Below are positions 48,290 through 57,777 of a DNA stretch of 64,000 bases, piece by piece. Each line of letters opens with the position of its first letter. Position 1 is the first letter of the stretch. The notes under the pieces were generated by a model. The model was not told where the DNA came from and did not search any database. It saw only the letters and a program-made list of their open reading frames with translations. A program made the translations under genes and the position numbers. The DNA is taken from NCBI GenBank assembly GCA_011947345.1, contig JAAVTG010000293.1, positions 1-64,000 of the forward strand, given 5' to 3'. The DNA comes from Phytophthora quininea (taxonomy: Eukaryota > Oomycota > Peronosporomycetes > Peronosporales > Peronosporaceae).

Positions 48290-49168
48290 TTAAATGTCGT
48301 TATAAGCGCGTGGGACGGCAGCAGTGAGAGCTGTCGGGAACGTGTCGAGTCGGAGCAGTCCAATCTGCACCACTTCCTCGTCGTCTTCGGACGACGAAAT
48401 CGTGATGCACGTGTCGTCGCTGTCTTCACTGGATCGGTGCAGGTGTTTGGTGGCCTTCTGCAGCTCACTGTGAAGCTGTTTCTTGGTGTACACCACGAGC
48501 CACCACATGCCGACGACGGTGAACACGGTGCCTCCCACCCCAATCACCATCCGTTGGCGGAACGACGTCTGCAGCTCGTTCACCTCGCTCTCCTCACTAC
48601 CCACGACCAGTCCCTTGCTGTGGTAGCCAATGTAGGCCCACAAAACCGCGTAGGGCAATCCTCCCAGCGCCGAGGACACGGCAAAGCGATACGTCGAGAC
48701 GTCCGCGATGGCCAGGCCGTAACATTTGACCAAATGCGGCACATTGGCCACTTGAATCAGCAGCAGCGGCTTCCAACTGGAGCTCTGCAGCACTGTAGCC
48801 AACGCTGCAAAAGTCGGGAAGTTGCTCTGCATGTAGCTGACGATTCGGTCCTTGCCGAACCGCTTGGCCAGTGCAAAGGCGATCAATTGGCCGGCCGTCT
48901 TGCCTGCTACACTGAGCAGCACGCCCGAGACGATGCCAAACATGGAGCCTGCCAAAATTTCGAAGCCTGGCGACGGGATGCACAGCGGGATGCCTATACA
49001 GAGGATCAACGGCAGCAGCATGGCACCCATGCCCGGGTTGTCTTGTATCCAGGCCATAGAAGACGCCACGTAGAGCTTGACGGGCACCAGGGTGAGCACC
49101 AGGTAGAGCGCGACGCAGCATAGTGTGGACCAGAAGAGCAGCTTGACGTAGGGCTTGAGGGACGGCAT
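48290..49168 (-). CDS. TVP38/TMEM64 (VTT domain) membrane protein
   Basis: An intact single-exon frame of 292 residues. Several membrane spans are visible: about 8-28, 45-65, 75-105 (with the re-entrant G-F-E-I-L-A-G-S-M-F-G motif) and about 205-230. The VTT/SNARE-associated domain shows the characteristic F-E-x-x-A-G-x-x-F-G, G-K-T-x-G, and G-L-P-Y-A-V-L-W-A-Y-I-G segments. VTT proteins (TMEM41B, VMP1, TVP38, DedA) include lipid scramblases of ER and Golgi. The C-terminal tail is cytosolic, Ser/Asp/Glu-rich. A paralogue lies at 56874-57777. Confidence 0.9.
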   Translation of the reverse strand: MPSLKPYVKLLFWSTLCCVALYLVLTLVPVKLYVASSMAWIQDNPGMGAMLLPLILCIGIPLCIPSPGFEILAGSMFGIVSGVLLSVAGKTAGQLIAFALAKRFGKDRIVSYMQSNFPTFAALATVLQSSSWKPLLLIQVANVPHLVKCYGLAIADVSTYRFAVSSALGGLPYAVLWAYIGYHSKGLVVGSEESEVNELQTSFRQRMVIGVGGTVFTVVGMWWLVVYTKKQLHSELQKATKHLHRSSEDSDDTCITISSSEDDEEVVQIGLLRLDTFPTALTAAVPRAYNDI

Positions 49169-50599
49169 GGCGGACTTGGGGGCTGCAGTCTACCAGGCCT
49201 ATCAAAGCCCGGTGCAATTGATGTCTGTGCGCTTGACGACAGGTTCCGAAGTGGTCGTTGACCTACTTGGGACATGCTATTTTTAGCCATACATTCCGCA
49301 AGTGGGCAAGTGATTACCCCTCTCACTTGAACAATGTAAGGGCGTGGTAGTCGCCTCCCTGTAGCCATCCACTGTGGTTGCCATTCACCACTTGTTGCCT
49401 TTTGGCGCTGCAATATCCGCAGGACAACCCACTGGGACATTGAGCTCGGGTTGTATGACTACAAGACATCATCTTTTCCTTTACTAGCTTTTTAGAGCTT
49501 AGTCGACTGTCCCGGATAAGTTTGGTTAGGCGGCACGGCTTATTCATACGCCACATTAAGGGCTCTAGTACTTGAACTACCGGGACTAAACGCAAGGGGA
49601 TTGTGTGTCGTTGGTGGCCTGCATCATCGCGTTTCCACTGCCGCCTATCTCGATGGCCAGTGGCGACTTGTTTGGAGCCCGCGAGCAACGTGAACGAAAA
49701 CTATGATGATGGTAACAGCTCACCATCGATGAGGATGCAGTTTACTCCATTGCCCGGCCAGCTGTGCGGCTTACGGGCACTTTGCTGTCGCGTTGCAGGG
49801 GCAAACGCGAGCACTTCCCGCGTGTCCGTCCACTTGCTCCTGCAATGGCGTAAATCGAGCTCTACCGCCATGCACACAGTCAGAATAACTGTAGCAGACC
49901 AGGAAAGCATGACAATTGCTAGGTATTCAAGTTTTCGCAGATGTGAATGGTGCCGATGTGGATGTCGAGTCATACGGGGCGAAAACGTGTCTAGCAGTCT
50001 CCGGAATCGGCTGCCGCTCCATGCGAGGGTTTACTGCCAACGAGATGGCCGTGCTGGAAGGCGCCGCGTTTGAAGCATAAGTATCCAGACAACCCGATAA
50101 GCACAAGGTGGAGGCATGAAAGATTACCGCTCGCTGAAGCGACAGACAAAAAAACGATTCTCCGCGGGAACATGCTCAGGATTTTCCTGTACGACAACGC
50201 GCACACGAAGTTCTTGTCGGGCGGCAGCAGGTGGGTGCAGCAATATATCGATATCAGGTGTGGTTTCAAATTGCTTGCTGGCTACGAGGAAGTGTGACTG
50301 GTCTCCGGCAAAGAATCCACTGGAAACTTGCACGCTGCAGCTCACGGCTCAAGGCGCGGTAGCTGCTAGAGGCGACCGTCTTCAAAACAACTCGCTGCTG
50401 GGACGTCGTGGAAATGGCGCGAGAAGGCTTGTTTATCTTCTTGTGGACGACTAGCTTTGGCAGCGTGTGGGGAATGATCGCGAATTAGTACATCCAAGAG
50501 TGGTGGATTCGAAAAACGATGAAGTTACGTATTCAACGTATCAATGCGAAAGAGTTCATGGCGATACAAGTCAAAGTTATCTGCAGCAGTGGAGACCCA
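49169..50599. other. Degenerate sequence, no gene assigned
   Basis: Contains short coding-like pieces on both strands, for example plus-strand codons near 49935-50080 (V-F-A-D-V-N-G-A-D-V-D-V-E-S-Y-G) and minus-strand Cys-containing codons near 49560-49400, but none long enough or similar enough to a known family to name. Parts may belong to the interrupted gene that follows. Confidence 0.4.
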
Positions 50600-51561
50600 A
50601 CCGTGCGTGAATTTTGCCACGGTATTTGGTCTTATTGACGATCCCTTCAACCGACGAAACTGGAAGGAGGAAGACGAACCAGCCGCGTGAGGCCTTCACT
50701 GACACACAATGTGCACTTGCCAACGGAGGCATCGGCCCTCCATCATCTAGCTCGCTCATCAATCGCCCTGGCCTGTGTACTTGCTTTTCGTATGGACAAC
50801 TTCTACATGTTCTTCGATCTCGCGTCATCGGTTCGAAAACCAATTCAGCCAGTCACAATCAAATGTGCCATGTCCAGCACCGACGACGGTGTCGATCTGG
50901 CGTTTCTAGGCCCTTGGGTGGAAGGTCTGCGTCGTCATGTGGTTGGACACGGGCATCGCTCAACTGGTCTATCGGTCACGGCGTCTTTCCGATGGGGAGA
51001 CAACTCGTTTGGCAACGATATCCCCCTCGAGATTGCAGCGCATCCGCAGGATCTCGCTTGTCTGCGGCGAGTTCGAGAGGCCATGGAGCTTGTTGAGTGT
51101 CCTCGCCATTGTGGACATCTCAGCTTCCGACAAATTATTGAAGACTATTTTCCCAGACCGTTGGTCTTTCACCGTCCCTAGTTGGGAATGCAGGCTGGTC
51201 GGGCAAAATGAAGTGGGGGTCGATCTGGAGCGACGTGGGGGAGCTGTTTGGGTTTTCAGAAAACCCGTGGGAATAAGAGTATCGAGCAGCTATGGACAGA
51301 CAATTGGGAATGGCGGACACTCGCCAGGGAAAGCTGTTCCGGGTGGAGACTAAACTGGCTTGGAGCATCTGCAACGAAGAGATCCAGATGAACATGTTAT
51401 TAGACGTGAGAACTTGTAATCCTTATGCTATGGGGGTTCTTCGGTGAGAAGATCCCGTCAATTGTTCAACGTTATGCTGGCCATGACCGCGACAGGTTTA
51501 TTGAAATGTGGCCCCAGCAACCTCGGTTGATAGAGAAGGAGAAAAGATCCTCCTATTATCG
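50600..51561 (+). pseudogene. 5' part of an oomycete-type gene split by the Mutator-like element
   Basis: Plus-strand coding in several frames, including L-A-F-L-G-P-W-V-E-G-L-R-R-H (about 50900) and F-G-N-D-I-P-L-E-I-A-A-H-P (about 51008-51050). Near the insertion it reads W-P-Q-Q-P-R-L-I-E-K-E-K-R-S-S-Y-Y-R and runs into the 10-bp target duplication at 51552-51561. Removing the element and one duplication joins this to the codons after 55342 in a plausible frame. I do not recognise the family; the 3' part is leucine-rich. Several frame breaks besides the insertion. Confidence 0.5.
51552..51561. repeat. Left copy of the 10-bp target-site duplication
   Basis: CCTATTATCG immediately precedes the element; the identical 10 bp follow it at 55332-55341. 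Length fits Mutator-like elements (usually 8-11 bp). Identity implies recent insertion. Confidence 0.9.
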
Positions 51562-51694
51562 GGTGAAACTAAGGAGGGCCATTTCTGCCGAAAGCCATTG
51601 CACGAAAAAGGACAAGAAATAGCAGCTGCAATTTTCATACAAAAACAAGCGTGCGCTCCAGCCGTGTCCGTCTCAACAGAGCGTGTCCGCTACA
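51562..51694 (+). repeat. Left terminal inverted repeat of the Mutator-like element
   Basis: Begins GGTGAAACTAAGGAGGGCC and ends GTCCGCTACA; reverse complement of 55199-55331 with only about one visible mismatch (near 51602). Confidence 0.93.
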
Positions 51695-51899
51695 ATGTTG
51701 ACTCAAATTAGCTCGAATGTTTCTCGTTCTCAAAGACTCAGTGTCTAAAGACGAAGACAACTTTTAATAGCACAAGTTGTGAACACGACACTAACCTCAC
51801 TTCTAACCTCACCACATCCCTTCCAGTCCGCAGCCTCTCAACCTCTACGTCTGAAGCACAAGCTCCGCATCAAAAGGCATACCTACTCGATCTTAAACG

Positions 51900-54252
51900 A
51901 TGGAGCTCAACTTTCTTCTCAATGCCCCCAACGGTTCAAATGGCAACCTTGACACCGTCTCGATCCCGAGGAATGAAAGCGATGATACTGCCATAACAAT
52001 GAACGACCTGCTTCAGGTTCTCCCGTTTCCTGACATGACCACTGAACAGGAGAATACTTCTTTATCCGGGCTCGACGAGTTACCCACCCGCGGTGCCATC
52101 GCCTCCAATACTCTGTTTGACAATGACTCCACGCTCGCGGGATCTTCTTTCGACCTCGCTCCGCTACCTTTGCCTAGCGAAAATGATATTTCCACTGCCC
52201 CGTTGCCTGTCGTCACGAGTCAACTTTATACCATCGAGCCACCTCCTCAATCAACTTACGAATCCGAGGAAGCAGTCATCGCCGCTCTGCACAGATGGAC
52301 GAAAGAACACGGTTTTAACGTCACGAAACGTCGTGCCTTCCCCCGAATGCTGCCCCCAATGAAGTTTGGAAACGTGGTTTTGACTGCGATCGAGCAGGAA
52401 AACCCAAGTGCACTCAACACCTTACTGACGATAATCGCCAGCGACCGATGCGAGGATCCATGCGAATTGGTTGCCCTATGAAGATAATAGTAAGAGCGGT
52501 TTGCAAAGACCACCCCAAGGGCCCCTGGAAGATCGTGCATACACGCAACGGAAGTAGCCTTCATAATCACCCGCCATCGCAGGATGCTCGAGTCCACCCA
52601 GGCCATCGACAACGAGCTTGTGCAGCTACAGATGTTCCGCCTGCAGCATCTCTAGAGCTCCTCGTCCAGGCTCAAACTAGAGTTGGAATAACCCCAGGTG
52701 CTGTGTGTGCAAGCTTGTTCCAGGCTGACCCGGGCTCTTTTGTCATACCCCAAGACATCGCCAACATGAGGAATGCTACTCGTCGACGTGAACTAGCAAC
52801 TCAAACAGTGGTGGAGGTCCTCTTTTCTCGGTTAAACGACGAAGGATTTTACTACCGGTGGGAAACTGATCCAGAGTCCAACCAACTCCTGTACTTGTTC
52901 TGGGCTCATCCTCGCACACTCTCACAGTATCGGCGACACCCCGAGGTTCTTGGTATGGATTGCACGTACAAGACGAACAAGTACAAGTTGCCACTGCTCA
53001 ATATTATCTCGCTGACAGGTTTTAACACTGTTTTACCTGTAGCACAATGTTGGTTACCGCGAGAGAGGGAAGAAGATTACGAATGGGCCATGCGAACACT
53101 GCGAGACTTCCTCATCGAAATGCGAATTGGACTGCCGTGTCTTATTCTTACCGACCGTGAGTTGGCTTCCATGAACGCTATTGATGCCGTTTTCCCTGAA
53201 GTGGCGGCTGTTGTATGTCGGTGGCACATGAACAAGAATGTACTCAGTAAAACAAGACAAATTCTCAGTCAAGTACCTGTTGAAAACCCAGCTCCGGGCC
53301 AACCAAAGTATGAGAACACTTGGCAGACTGATGCAATCATGTCAGCTTTTACGAGGCGGTCGATGCAGCAACGGAAGAGGAATTCGAGGACAAGCACTCT
53401 ATCCTGCGAAGTTTGAATCGACCTCTCTCTGATTATCTTGATAAGCACTGGTGGAAATACAAGACACGAATCGTTCGCGCCTGGACCGACCGGTTCCAGC
53501 ATTTTGGGATCCGTGACACATCTTTTGTCGAAGGAGCCCACGCAAAGTGTAAAGTATGGCTCCGCGGTTGCAACGGCGACATTCTCACTGTGTTTCTCTC
53601 CCTACTGCCGTGGTGGCAAGCAGCTGTATCTAATACGAGTCTTCTGGCTGAGAGAAATTCTGCTCGGGTTCCTTACCTTTTGCAAGGAAATCGATTCGCG
53701 GCTGTCACTCGTATCATCACCGTGTGGGCACTCACACGAACGAACGAGCTGTGGGAGGAAGCTCGGATGGTTATTTTCCGGAGAGCTGACCAAGGAAAAT
53801 GCACAGGAGTATTTCGGACGGTGCACGGACGACCATGTCTACACGAGTTGATTGCTCTCACAGAATCAAATGGCCGGCAAATTCTCAGCCCTCATGATTT
53901 CGCGTTGCATTGGTGGATTAATCGCGACCTAGCTCACACACTACCAATCCGTATCCAGGAGCCGGCGTATACCCAGCAGGCGCAACTACAGCGGCGCCGT
54001 CGCGTCGATCGACACAGCAGAGTTCGGCGATCGAATGCCACAAGACGCGATCCCGCTCTGTTTGAACGCATCAATTTAAATCACCCCGCAACTCCACCAT
54101 CCGCACGATTAGCTAGACAAGCATCCTCTGACACAGTAGTTACCTGGCTGCCTCCTTTGACCGGTCCTTCCAACTTCACGGCGACAGAAACGAATATTTA
54201 TCACGAAAACGATATTCCGCCACGATTCTGGGGACATGCGCGATGGGGATAG
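51900..54252 (+). CDS. MULE transposase
   Basis: About 784 residues from the ATG at 51900. The N-terminal 200 residues are acidic, then a FAR1-like DNA-binding stretch follows (W-T-K-E-H-G-F, about 52292; R-I-G-C-P-M-K-I; H-N-H-P, about 52564). The MULE catalytic domain has V-L-G-M-D-C-T-Y-K-T-N (first Asp, about 52950-52980), L-I-L-T-D-R-E-L-A-S-M (second Asp, about 53137) and V-C-R-W-H-M-N-K-N (about 53213-53240). Two missing bases break the frame: near 52422 (CC) and near 53350 (TTTT where five fit). Both corrections restore family sequence. The C-terminus is Arg-rich. Otherwise undamaged, so it may be active. Confidence 0.9.
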
Positions 54253-54319
54253 AACAACAGGTTCCCTAATTGAAAGTAAAGCGGCCAAAATTTATTCTTT
54301 CCGTTTAAACCAGAAGATT

Positions 54320-55172
54320 TTACGATTGCGTACCTTTTCCCAATGCGGTCTTAATGTGCTTATGTCCGCGACTCACGTGCGTTCTGTAGGAACTGTCAAC
54401 GTCGTAGCTATCTCCACAAATATTGCAACTCCATGGCCCCTGCCTCTTAGTTGGCGCACGGCGAGTTTCTTCGTTCTTTTGAGCCTTGGGATTCTTCTTA
54501 CAGTACCGACGATGCTGCCGCATTAAATTTGACTGGTCTAGTTTCAGGTCACAGTACTGACACTCGTAGTGGCGAGGTAGGACACTTGAAACAATGTCGG
54601 GTTCCCAAGCGAGGCCTCGGTAGGACAAGTAGCAATGAATTCGATGGTTTGTGGTCTCGTACGGCATGCCATTATGTATGAGGTCTCCACGAAAAATCAC
54701 ACAGAAGCCAACCGGAATTGACAGCACGCGAGCCTTTGCATCATCTTTTGTCGCAACGCAGCCGTCGAATACGCGAAGCTGTGTCCCCTCCTCCAAAGCG
54801 CAAACCATACTTGCAGGCACACGACCTTTGCTATTGGCCGCATCAATAACGCTGGTAGGGTAGTCTTGGTGGCTTTCTTGTTCTGGCCCTCCAGGACGAG
54901 AGCGCATGAATGAGAACACACTGGGGAGCCAGCCAGGGTCCAGGCAGGCAGTAATTGCCTTCAGCGCACGCTTCAATTCTCCTACAGCCCCCGAGGTTCG
55001 AACAACACGAGACTGCTCGCGAAATTGGTCGTCACTGTCCCCCAACCTCCTGGAACACGGGCGTGTAGTTGCGACTGCGGGCTTCATCTTGGAGCGCCGA
55101 GAGCACCTCGGATGCCAGGCCCAGGTACACGACAATGTAGCCGCACGGGGGCAGCGACGGCTTGGGCCCCAT
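54320..55172 (-). CDS. Transposon cargo: 2-oxoglutarate/Fe(II) dioxygenase-like protein with two zinc fingers
   Basis: Start at the ATG at 55172 (M-G-P-K-P-S-L-P), 26 bp inside the right terminal repeat; about 284 residues. A double-stranded beta-helix dioxygenase pattern runs from about residue 60 to 220: the metal-binding H-x-D in E-S-H-Q-D-Y-P (about 54862-54842), then the distal His in G-D-L-I-H-N-G (about 54690-54665) and a candidate 2-oxoglutarate Arg in N-H-R-I-H-C-Y-L. The C-terminus has a C-x2-C-x12-H-x3-C finger (about 54570-54510) and a C-x2-C-x12-H-x4-H finger (about 54420-54355). Such a pairing suggests an enzyme acting on nucleic acid or chromatin; substrate unknown. One extra G near 55038 breaks the frame. 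An alternative is a captured host gene. Confidence 0.7.
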
Positions 55173-55198
55173 CGCCGATCGGGAAATGACTGAATCTG

Positions 55199-55331
55199 TG
55201 TAGCGGACACGCTCTGTTGAGACGGACACGGCTGGAGCGCACGCTTGTTTTTGTATGAAAATTGCAGCTGCTATTTCTTGTCCTTTTTCGTACAATGGCT
55301 TTCGGCAGAAATGGCCCTCCTTAGTTTCACC
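55199..55331 (-). repeat. Right terminal inverted repeat of the Mutator-like element
   Basis: Reverse complement of 51562-51694; ends GTTTCACC at 55331, followed by the second target duplication. Confidence 0.93.
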
Positions 55332-55341
55332 CCTATTATCG
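55332..55341. repeat. Right copy of the 10-bp target-site duplication
   Basis: CCTATTATCG, identical to 51552-51561. Confidence 0.9.
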
Positions 55342-56707
55342 GGAAGTTTCTGTTTCTAGGGTGGATCTGACGGCGCCACGCATAGGTGATATGCTGGCCG
55401 AGTGCAACCTGGGGGACTTGAACTAATACTTGGGGACGGGGTTGCGGATAGACGGCACTGGGGAAACGTCGTTCAAAACATTGCTGTTTTGCTAAGAACA
55501 GATCTTCCGGCTCGATCTCTATTCCAATACGCTGGGAAAATCCACATATATTGCCAGACACGTGCTGAAGCGGGCTTCACTGCGATTTTGTCTGCGGTTG
55601 TCCACTTGTCGGGCCTTCGCGAAGTGGATCTTAGTACTGAAAACCCTACGGAAAATGAAGATGAATGGCAGATCCGTCCAACAACGCCGGTGCACTGGAA
55701 ATGGCTAGCGTACGCGTTGTTCAGCAAAGCAGCGAATGCGGACGTCGGAGATTTGACTATCACGAAGTTCCACCTGACCGCGCGGGACGTAGAAGCAGTT
55801 GCAGCCGTGATGCAGACAAGTTATCCACAACCTCTGCTTCATCGAGCAGCTGCGTTCGAACCGCAGTATGGATTCGTCGACCTACAAAAAAACGCCGTTG
55901 CGTCTTGCCGGATCCAGTGACGGCGAGAACGACGACATTACCGTTTTGCTGCCCCGTGGCTGTCGCTGTCGAGCGTTTTATAATCCTGTGAGTACCAGCT
56001 CTTAATTGGAAGTTGTCGTCCCTGGTTTTGGGATCTGCCAAGTCGAGCTTGGTAATGCAATGAACGAGTTCGTTCCAGGCATGTTTCCCGAACCAGAAAA
56101 TCTTGATAGTGGCGTCAACGAACTCTATCTGGACAATATTAGACTTCATGATATTACAGTGCTAACAGATATGCTGGCACTGATCAGTGGGCGGCTGCGC
56201 AACCTTACGATACATCTCAGACAGAATGAACTGCAGGTGGATTTTTGCGCGGTGGCTGCTGCCTGGTCAAACATCAGAATGCTTAGTTTGACTGGCATGG
56301 ATGTCTCGATATCCAACCACGACGCGCTAAGAAACTGGGCCATTGCATATTTAGATATCACACCAAACAAGCCCGTGGCTGACTTGACAATTTGCCTAGA
56401 AGACCCCATGCATCGAATGTCGCGCGAATTGGAAGATCTGAACATCAGTCTCCCACCGAATGGCAACTTAAGCGACGAGCAGATTGGGCGGCTCATGACA
56501 CACCACGGTGAATTTCTTCCTGTTGCTGGCCAGAGATTTCCGCGTGAAAACAAAGCAGCTCTGCTCAGTGTGGTGTTGCCATCTAGTTGCCAAGCTAACC
56601 AGCACGACCGGAAGGCTATTCACCGCTTGGACGACAACATTCTGAGCTTGATTTTCAAGATGGCGGCCAAACCCAAGAAGCGATTGGTTCTGGTGGAGAA
56701 AAAGTAA
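55342..56707 (+). pseudogene. 3' part of the gene split by the Mutator-like element
   Basis: Reads E-V-S-V-S-R-V-D-L-T then, with a frame change near 55420, L-I-L-G-D-G-V-A-D-R-R and on through leucine-rich sequence (L-S-G-L-R-E-V-D-L, about 55610-55640; V-N-E-L-Y-L-D-N-I-R-L, about 56115-56145; L-R-N-L-T-I-H-L-R, about 56195). Ends D-D-N-I-L-S-L-I-F-K-M-A-A-K-P-K-K-R-L at the stop 56705-56707. A frame break near 55900 is a single base. Leucine-rich character suggests a repeat-type protein; it resembles a gene family expanded in oomycetes, function unknown. It is cut from its N-terminus by the element and so is not functional here unless spliced around. Confidence 0.55.
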
Positions 56708-56873
56708 ATTGAGAAGTGGTGTTTGTGTTCAGCTTTCGGTACCGAGTAGCGCAGTTTTTTTATAAGTTGGCGTACGAAGGAGTTTTAATGTTAAGTATTT
56801 TGTTGGCGATGGCATCATTTCACGCACGTGGATTCGAAGCGTTGGGTCAAAACAAAATCTGCATTAGAATTTC

Positions 56874-57777
56874 TCAAGCCCAGAGTCGCGTCGGTGTGGA
56901 TGGCCAAACGCCCTGCGCCGGACTTTTAAAGTTCGCTGGCGTCGTCGGGTCCACCTCAATGGACACCAGCGAATCTTCTTCGCTGCTGCTTCTGCATTCT
57001 CTCTTTGCAGCTCCCGCAATTCTCGTCTAGTATACACCACCAGGAACGTCACAGCCAGCACCGTCAACGCCACTCCGCTGACGATCACCACCATGCGTCC
57101 AGTGGACAACTTCGCTTCTCCCGTCACAATAGCAGCGATGTCAGTCGCTTGGTCTCCGATATACGCCCACAAAACCGCATGAGGGATATTCCCCACCGCT
57201 GACGAGACAGCGAACCTCCATACAGACACTTGAGTGATGGCCAGACTGTAACATTTGACGATATTGGGGATACTGGACAACTGGAAGAGCATCACTGGCT
57301 TCCAACTGGAACTGTTGAGCACTTCCGAGAAGGCTCGGAAGGTCGGGAACTTGGTACGTAGGTAGCCTCCGATCACTTCTTTGCCCATCGTTCTCCCCAG
57401 TAGAAACGCCAACGTGGAGCCCCTGTTTTGCCAATAGTAATGACCAGCACGGCATGAGGAACTCCGAAGAGTAGACCTGCCACCATTTCTAGTGCTGTGG
57501 CCGGTAGACAGAGCGGCACGGCCAGCCAGAACACGAAGATCATTACCAATGTCCCCAGCACGAAATGCGCCTGCACCCACGTCGTCGTCGCTACTAAATA
57601 CTCGTGAATTGGCAGACTGGAAAGCAACATGGCTACACTTGAGAGAAGTAGCAGGAACGCCACTAGACGCAGCCAGAAGAGCACCCGATCGCGTGGGGAA
57701 GGTTTAGAGGCACTCATCGACGCGTTCCAGCGATCATACGAGGCCACGCTGTTGTAGGTGACCGCGGACGGAGGCAT
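56874..57777 (-). CDS. TVP38/TMEM64 (VTT domain) membrane protein, second copy
   Basis: Start at the ATG at 57777 (M-P-P-S-A-V-T-Y). It has membrane spans near residues 35-55, 70-90 and 95-120, a L-E-M-V-A-G-L-L-F-G re-entrant motif, and, after a frame change, S-S-S-W-K-P-V-M-L-F-Q-L and G-N-I-P-H-A-V-L-W-A-Y-I-G, closely parallel to the protein at 48290-49168. The break near 57425 is one G missing from a run; a second near 57010 restores an acidic S-S-E-E-D-S-L-V-S tail ending at 56874. Likely a lipid-handling protein of ER or Golgi. The 115 bp upstream is shared with the next, divergent gene. Confidence 0.82.

Follow-up and report, generated by a model that had tools for sequence, protein, structure and literature searches.

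The DNA analyzed here (the window) is a stretch of 64,000 nucleotides from Phytophthora quininea (contig JAAVTG010000293.1 of assembly GCA_011947345.1, positions 1 to 64,000), in which a Mutator-like element (MULE) of 3.77 kb occupies positions 51561-55332. It carries two genes, one for a MULE transposase and one for a 2-oxoglutarate (2OG)/Fe(II) oxygenase-zinc finger protein. The element is bounded by 134-nt terminal inverted repeats (TIRs), found by an inverted repeat search at 51561-51694 on the forward strand and 55199-55332 on the reverse strand; they are 99% complementary, and no other pair of inverted repeats at least 20 nt long was reported within 50500-56500. The original prediction, made from the window itself, had recognized this matched pair and given its length as 133 nt, one short. 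The sequence CTATTATC can be read immediately outside each repeat, at 51553-51560 on the left and again as CTATTATC at 55333-55340 on the right, as an unstranded target-site duplication; owing to a G/C run at the element ends, its length varies from 8 to 10 bp with the placement of these ends. Long TIRs and a target duplication of about 8 to 11 bp, as expected of a MULE, are thus both present.

The transposase gene lies on the forward strand and is distributed over three frames: an N-terminal open reading frame (ORF; 51900-52481) without a Pfam match at E ≤ 1, a core (52319-53416) with the MULE domain PF10551 (79.1 bits, cut-off 27.6; E = 3.7e-22) and a weak FAR1-type N-terminal match below its cut-off, and a C-terminal ORF (53332-54252) without a Pfam match. 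In a further copy of the element, C558, the same gene is one continuous frame of 667 amino acids. Tail to tail with the transposase, on the reverse strand and likewise inside the TIRs, the oxygenase-zinc finger gene runs from an ATG at 55172 to a stop at 54320; both its limits and its convergent position relative to the transposase are those originally predicted. The window element is therefore confirmed as a Mutator-like element with a 2OG oxygenase-zinc finger gene beside its transposase.

The oxygenase-zinc finger gene occupies two frames, with a break beside a run of G and a stop in the first frame after codon 46. The piece downstream of the break, P0001, is open for 241 codons (54323-55045, reverse strand, as are all its features) and contains the motifs that had drawn attention to the gene: an H-x-D metal motif (His59 and Asp61, 54863-54871), a distal metal histidine (His124), and a candidate 2OG-binding arginine (Arg135) 11 residues further on (54641-54676). 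Alignments were made of 24 proteins selected from P0001-P0027 and of 37 selected from P0001-P0049. In the 37-row alignment the metal triad and the arginine are kept in 31/34, 29/33, 33/35, and 33/35 of the rows with a letter at the position, as expected of the Fe(II)/2OG superfamily, with its H-x-D...H triad and distal 2OG-binding Arg or Lys. Two C-terminal fingers are present, as predicted; the second is of the C2H2 type (C207, C210, H223, H228; 54362-54427, alignment and Pfam), and the first proved on alignment to be C2HC rather than C2H2 (C162, C165, H178, C182; 54500-54562), its fourth ligand being cysteine in all 30 rows with a letter there. The C2H2 profile PF00096 matches 17 of the 24 family members at E ≤ 1; P0002, a P. 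capsici protein, exceeds the cut-off of 25.2 bits (27.1 bits), and the window's own piece stays below it (19.5 bits).

AlphaFold models were compared with the PDB for a P. capsici homologue and for the 241-residue piece from the window. The best matches of both predicted structures were Fe(II)/2OG oxygenases, consistent with the double-stranded beta-helix fold of that superfamily; lack of such a fold had been named beforehand as grounds for abandoning the prediction. A chance ORF was also considered for the gene and rejected, given the fold, the conservation, and the pairing with a transposase described below.

The oxygenase gene is a standing companion of the transposase

A search of the genome (87 Mb) gave 95 matches to the gene, representing 72 loci after merging. 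Each of the 14 best loci has a convergent MULE match at a distance of 0.9-1.1 kb. A MULE match no more than 5 kb away accompanies 24 of the 72, convergent in 20 cases and in the same orientation in 4 (C864, C863, C8, and C27); the 5-kb surroundings of the MULE matches listed make up 2% of the genome. At two of the same-strand loci, C8 and C864, a convergent partner of another type is present. The reciprocal count was made on 29 MULE loci at E < 1e-40, with shorter pieces (C979, C551, C664, and others) excluded. The companion gene accompanies 16 of the 17 MULEs at 59-100% identity, always convergent and 0.9-1.1 kb distant, and none of the 12 at 40-55%. The possibility that the gene occurs only once among copies of the element, which would have counted against the prediction, did not materialize: all six near-identical copies, the window's included, carry it. 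Several copies have ends of their own. Those at C3 and C558 have 55-nt TIRs (96% and 100%) and duplications of 8-9 bp, and 9-bp duplications were found by eye at C19 (TAAAAGCAG) and C113 (ATTAATATG); none was found for the C419 copy with the ends used.

The two genes have diverged together. Protein distances at 13 of the 17 loci (near-identical copies dropped) correlate with r = 0.976, a value reached in 0 of 5,000 permutations. Between subfamilies, the proportion of synonymous differences (pS) is 0.73-0.92 and thus saturated, so that no ratio of substitution rates (dN/dS) can be drawn from these pairs, versus a non-synonymous proportion (pN) of 0.28-0.44; young pairs have a pN/pS of about 0.4-0.7. 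Computation thus shows selection against amino-acid change between subfamilies, and it shows the oxygenase gene to be a long co-inherited, standing companion of the MULE transposase. The gene seems to have been retained for as long as this transposase clade has existed. Both the fold and the copies support the central claim of the original prediction, a MULE with a 2OG/Fe(II) oxygenase-zinc finger gene of its own.

Some observations do not sit well with so close a partnership. Forty-eight of the 72 gene loci have no MULE match within 5 kb, and 4 of the 24 that do share the strand of the closest one. One MULE that is 73% identical to the window transposase (C517:215478-216473) has no companion, possibly through an internal deletion, and a 63% fragment below the E cut (C979:22400) likewise has no gene match next to it. 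Within the C3/C558/C752b/C981 group, changes are nearly all non-synonymous (6.5-13.5 against 0-1.5 synonymous), giving no sign of constraint. Elsewhere on C979 (66346-82557), small transposase and oxygenase pieces lie in both orientations and resemble decayed or rearranged copies.

The frame break of the window gene is common to six copies, the window's included, of about 95% identity or more. The reading is intact at this position in homologues P0002-P0007, P0012, P0016, and P0017 and in the copies at C3, C558, and C419; at C558 both genes are open (332 and 667 amino acids), and therefore intact copies exist. Because of the shared break, the window copy may make no full-length enzyme, and the element may rely on enzyme supplied by other loci of the genome. 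On this point the original prediction is weakened.

Relatives in other transposons

Related genes accompany two further types of MULE. Proteins of the first group are 28-29% identical to P0002 and retain the motif order H-H-D, G-D-L-A-H, R-x-H and the fingers. In a comparison that covered 23 gene loci and 48 of 103 matches, a SWIM-type MULE is convergent at all nine loci that have such a neighbor (C746 twice, C8, C745, C795, C576, C796, C211, and C52); the other 14 have no SWIM match on the contig. The SWIM label is a motif reading, Pfam naming PF10551 alone. The C8 copy is flanked by imperfectly matching 31-nt repeats (74%) and has GTTGTAGAC as its 9-bp duplication. Members of the second group are convergent to a FLYWCH-bearing gene at five of five loci (C567, C864, C450, C340, and C517); at C340 a PF10551 match adjoins the pair, and the two genes at C567 lie inside a pair of 37-nt repeats (92%) that has no exact duplication. 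Inverted repeats of 30 nt or more were not found in L039, L040, L042, L046, and L057. MULE-borne proteins from three lineages retain the metal triad and the arginine.

A repeated unit at L043 and L044 (both C27) and L045 (C406) combines an ORF with an FHA domain (with a weak BRCT match, L043:748-2211) and a degenerate oxygenase-finger ORF; it is possibly a further element type. At L043 the degenerate ORF is on the same strand as the MULE domain, an exception to the convergent order.

More distant relatives accompany Helitrons. Of 121 genome matches, 67 had been assigned neither to the window's own group nor to the SWIM-type group, and at least 32 of these have a Helitron_like_N match within 8 kb, convergent in all 32; the genome fraction within 8 kb of the Helitron_like_N matches listed is 2.4%. 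Many of these are copies of a few families and so are not independent. The remaining 35 have no listed Helitron match within 8 kb, and 3 of them have a FLYWCH match within 4 kb. A profile comparison with hhalign joined the Helitron-type relatives to the MULE-borne family with a probability of 99.5% (E = 6e-23, 185 columns). In ten aligned Helitron-type proteins, for only some of which a Helitron neighbor is known, the first metal histidine is replaced by arginine throughout, the aspartate is kept in nine, and the distal histidine is Tyr in six, His in three, and Phe in one; the finger is retained. Judged by these residues, the Helitron-borne relative is probably a conserved pseudo-oxygenase. 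Proteins at L046 (C331), L047 (C290), L048 (C645), L050 (C517:504-510 kb), and L060 (C289) have RR[DE]F in place of H-x-D, together with oxygenase-fold homology and a C-terminal C2H2-like finger. A Helitron Rep domain (PF14214) is convergent at 4.7-5.0 kb on C331, C645, and C289; L047 and L050 have no listed Helitron match within 8 kb.

That the pair stays together across several old element lineages suggests that the elements bring their own enzyme, perhaps one that undoes host silencing.

Family affiliation and possible role

Profile searches gave a mixed answer to the suggestion of a known oxygenase family, with a weak match to PhyH and none to TET/JBP. PhyH (PF05721) is the nearest profile, matching 10 of the 24 members at E ≤ 1 (best 0.003), and a protein from a SWIM-type element reaches 21.9 bits against a cut-off of 22.0. 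The TET/JBP profile PF12851 has no match in the genome, and none in the control genomes either; it is not among the best 25 of 50 Pfam families for the 24-protein alignment, and no TET chain is among the 50 top PDB rows listed per structure comparison, which excludes nothing. PDB sequence searches returned only zinc finger proteins among the best 60 of 105 and the best 60 of 80, and an NCBIfam search gave nothing useful. The best structural scores of the predicted models include PpP4H, PHD2, FtmOx1, AsqJ, OkaE, SnoN, and KanJ, the last five of which we take to be PhyH-type 2OG oxygenases; for the model of the window piece FtmOx1, OkaE, and AsqJ lead, and AlkB ranks lower. PhyH-type oxygenases are like the window protein in fold, in structural score, and in the weak PF05721 matches, and the human PhyH-type enzyme PAHX has the same H-to-R spacing of 11. 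However, identity is only about 9-18% in the structural alignments listed, and PhyH-type oxygenases have small-molecule substrates and no zinc fingers.

Beyond the computed features (element anatomy, fold, active site, co-inheritance, selection, and convergent pairing in further MULE types), we infer catalytic activity, DNA binding, nuclear location, a substrate, and an anti-silencing role. The account that we favor, by a modest degree, is that of a two-gene MULE in which the fingers target an enzyme that keeps the transposase expressed. Intact relatives would encode a small enzyme combining a double-stranded beta-helix Fe(II)/2OG oxygenase with one C2HC and one C2H2 finger; the fingers would recruit it to the DNA or chromatin of the element, where the oxygenase would oxidize a methyl mark, either N6-methyladenine (6mA) or histone methyl-lysine, or alternatively hydroxylate a silencing protein, and the transposase gene would remain expressed. 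Two Phytophthora species have no detectable 5-methylcytosine (5mC) (excerpt of PMC6211444), and the 5mC methylase profile PF00145 has no match in the genome, versus matches in 10 of 14 control genomes (six-frame searches, introns ignored); removal of 5mC is therefore unlikely, and the target is more likely to be 6mA, a histone mark, or a protein. The genome has two matches to MT-A70 (PF05063), and in P. sojae H3K9me3 and H3K27me3 surround transposon-rich centromeres (excerpt of PMC7082073). Together, the absent signs of 5mC and the P. sojae histone marks make an eraser of 6mA or of histone methylation the most plausible candidate role, with a protein hydroxylase as its main rival.

Several points tell against an eraser. 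No substrate can be read from the sequence. The structures closest to the predicted fold belong to enzymes whose substrates are small molecules or protein prolines rather than DNA. The loss of metal ligands in the Helitron relatives means that the role of the protein need not be catalytic, and a break common to six copies means either that this subfamily multiplied while none of its own copies was intact or that the frameshift is tolerated.

A P4H/PHD-like hydroxylase, acting on the transposase or a host factor to aid transposition rather than on a mark, is unlikely but deserves the most weight among the rivals. PpP4H and PHD2 are among the top structural matches of the models, uniref labels homologues P0023-P0025 "Prolyl 4-hydroxylase alpha su..." or similar, and the divergence of the oxygenase parallels that of the transposase, as expected of partners. 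However, the H-to-R spacing of 11 in the window family differs from that of PHD2, which is 9, the two fingers suggest a nucleic-acid target, and the window piece has FtmOx1, OkaE, and AsqJ as its top structural matches. We consider it rather improbable that the protein is a DNA-binding accessory, with a role like that of mudrB or VANC, in which the oxygenase fold is structural and catalysis dispensable. To our knowledge, VANC is not an oxygenase. The Helitron-borne relatives, which keep the homology and the finger while losing metal ligands, would fit such a role, but three lineages of MULE-borne proteins preserve both the triad and the arginine.

Capture of host genes by MULEs is common (excerpt of PMC6446971), but a captured passenger without a role in transposition (Pack-MULE-like) is very improbable here, and a one-off capture unlikely: 16 of 17 related loci retain the gene, the two genes co-diverge, constraint acts between subfamilies, the gene recurs in several element types in a mostly identical convergent order, and no single-copy host gene stood out in the 95 and 121 matches, not each of which was examined. 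A programmed frameshift setting the amount of enzyme is also very improbable: the break lies beside a G run, and six copies at separate places all have their first stop after codon 46, which might suggest one, but the homologues and copies listed above are continuous there, the window transposase is likewise split over three frames, and descent from one broken master is the simpler account.

The closest parallels to the eraser account are the fungal TET/JBP transposons, which comprise TET-bearing KDZ, hAT, Harbinger, IS3EU, EnSpm/ESTA, Plavaka, and Helitron elements (excerpt of PMC12730594). As here, a 2OG/Fe(II) oxygenase gene lies beside the transposase in several unrelated element types, Helitrons included; 5mC silencing is thought to be countered, and anti-silencing by the enzymes is proposed, not shown (same excerpt). 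The present elements differ in being MULEs of oomycetes, in the C-terminal fingers, in giving no TET/JBP match, and in having hosts from a genus in which two species show no detectable 5mC. The abstract of PMC12730594 does not list MULEs among TET/JBP transposon lineages, and the words Mutator and MULE do not occur in its text, where MuDR denotes Vandal and Phytophthora SET elements. Those Phytophthora MuDR elements bear SET genes (PMC12730594), as do 14 members of the oomycete group MULE-Phytophthora_1 (excerpt of PMC6446971). Like ours, the latter are oomycete MULEs with an extra gene for a chromatin-type enzyme, although that enzyme is a SET methyltransferase and not an oxygenase; the text of PMC6446971 nowhere uses the word "dioxygenase". 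An accessory protein that counters the silencing of its own MULE is exemplified by VANC of the Arabidopsis VANDAL element Hiun (excerpts of PMC6446971 and PMC12730594). No oomycete MULE or Helitron with oxygenase cargo was found in full-text literature searches, although the Repbase Reports cited in PMC12730594 (oomycete DNA transposons, 2014) could describe such elements.

We tentatively propose a parallel recruitment in oomycete transposons, independent of that in fungi, of one family in three MULE types and Helitrons, convergent to the transposase in almost every resolved pair, with an active non-5mC eraser in the MULEs and a pseudo-oxygenase in the Helitrons; this is possible, though somewhat short of probable. 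If true, transposon-borne oxidative anti-silencing arose at least twice, with separate oxygenase families and marks, and an eraser would be a case of convergent evolution in transposon counter-defense. The family would then offer a candidate eraser of oomycete transposon silencing, be the mark 6mA, histone methylation, or another, which is relevant to the transposon-rich, fast-changing genome compartments of oomycetes.

Similar-looking ORFs lie on both sides of the window element (48290-49189 and 56864-57703, both on the reverse strand); by eye, they presumably encode a multi-span membrane protein of the SNARE-associated/VTT type.
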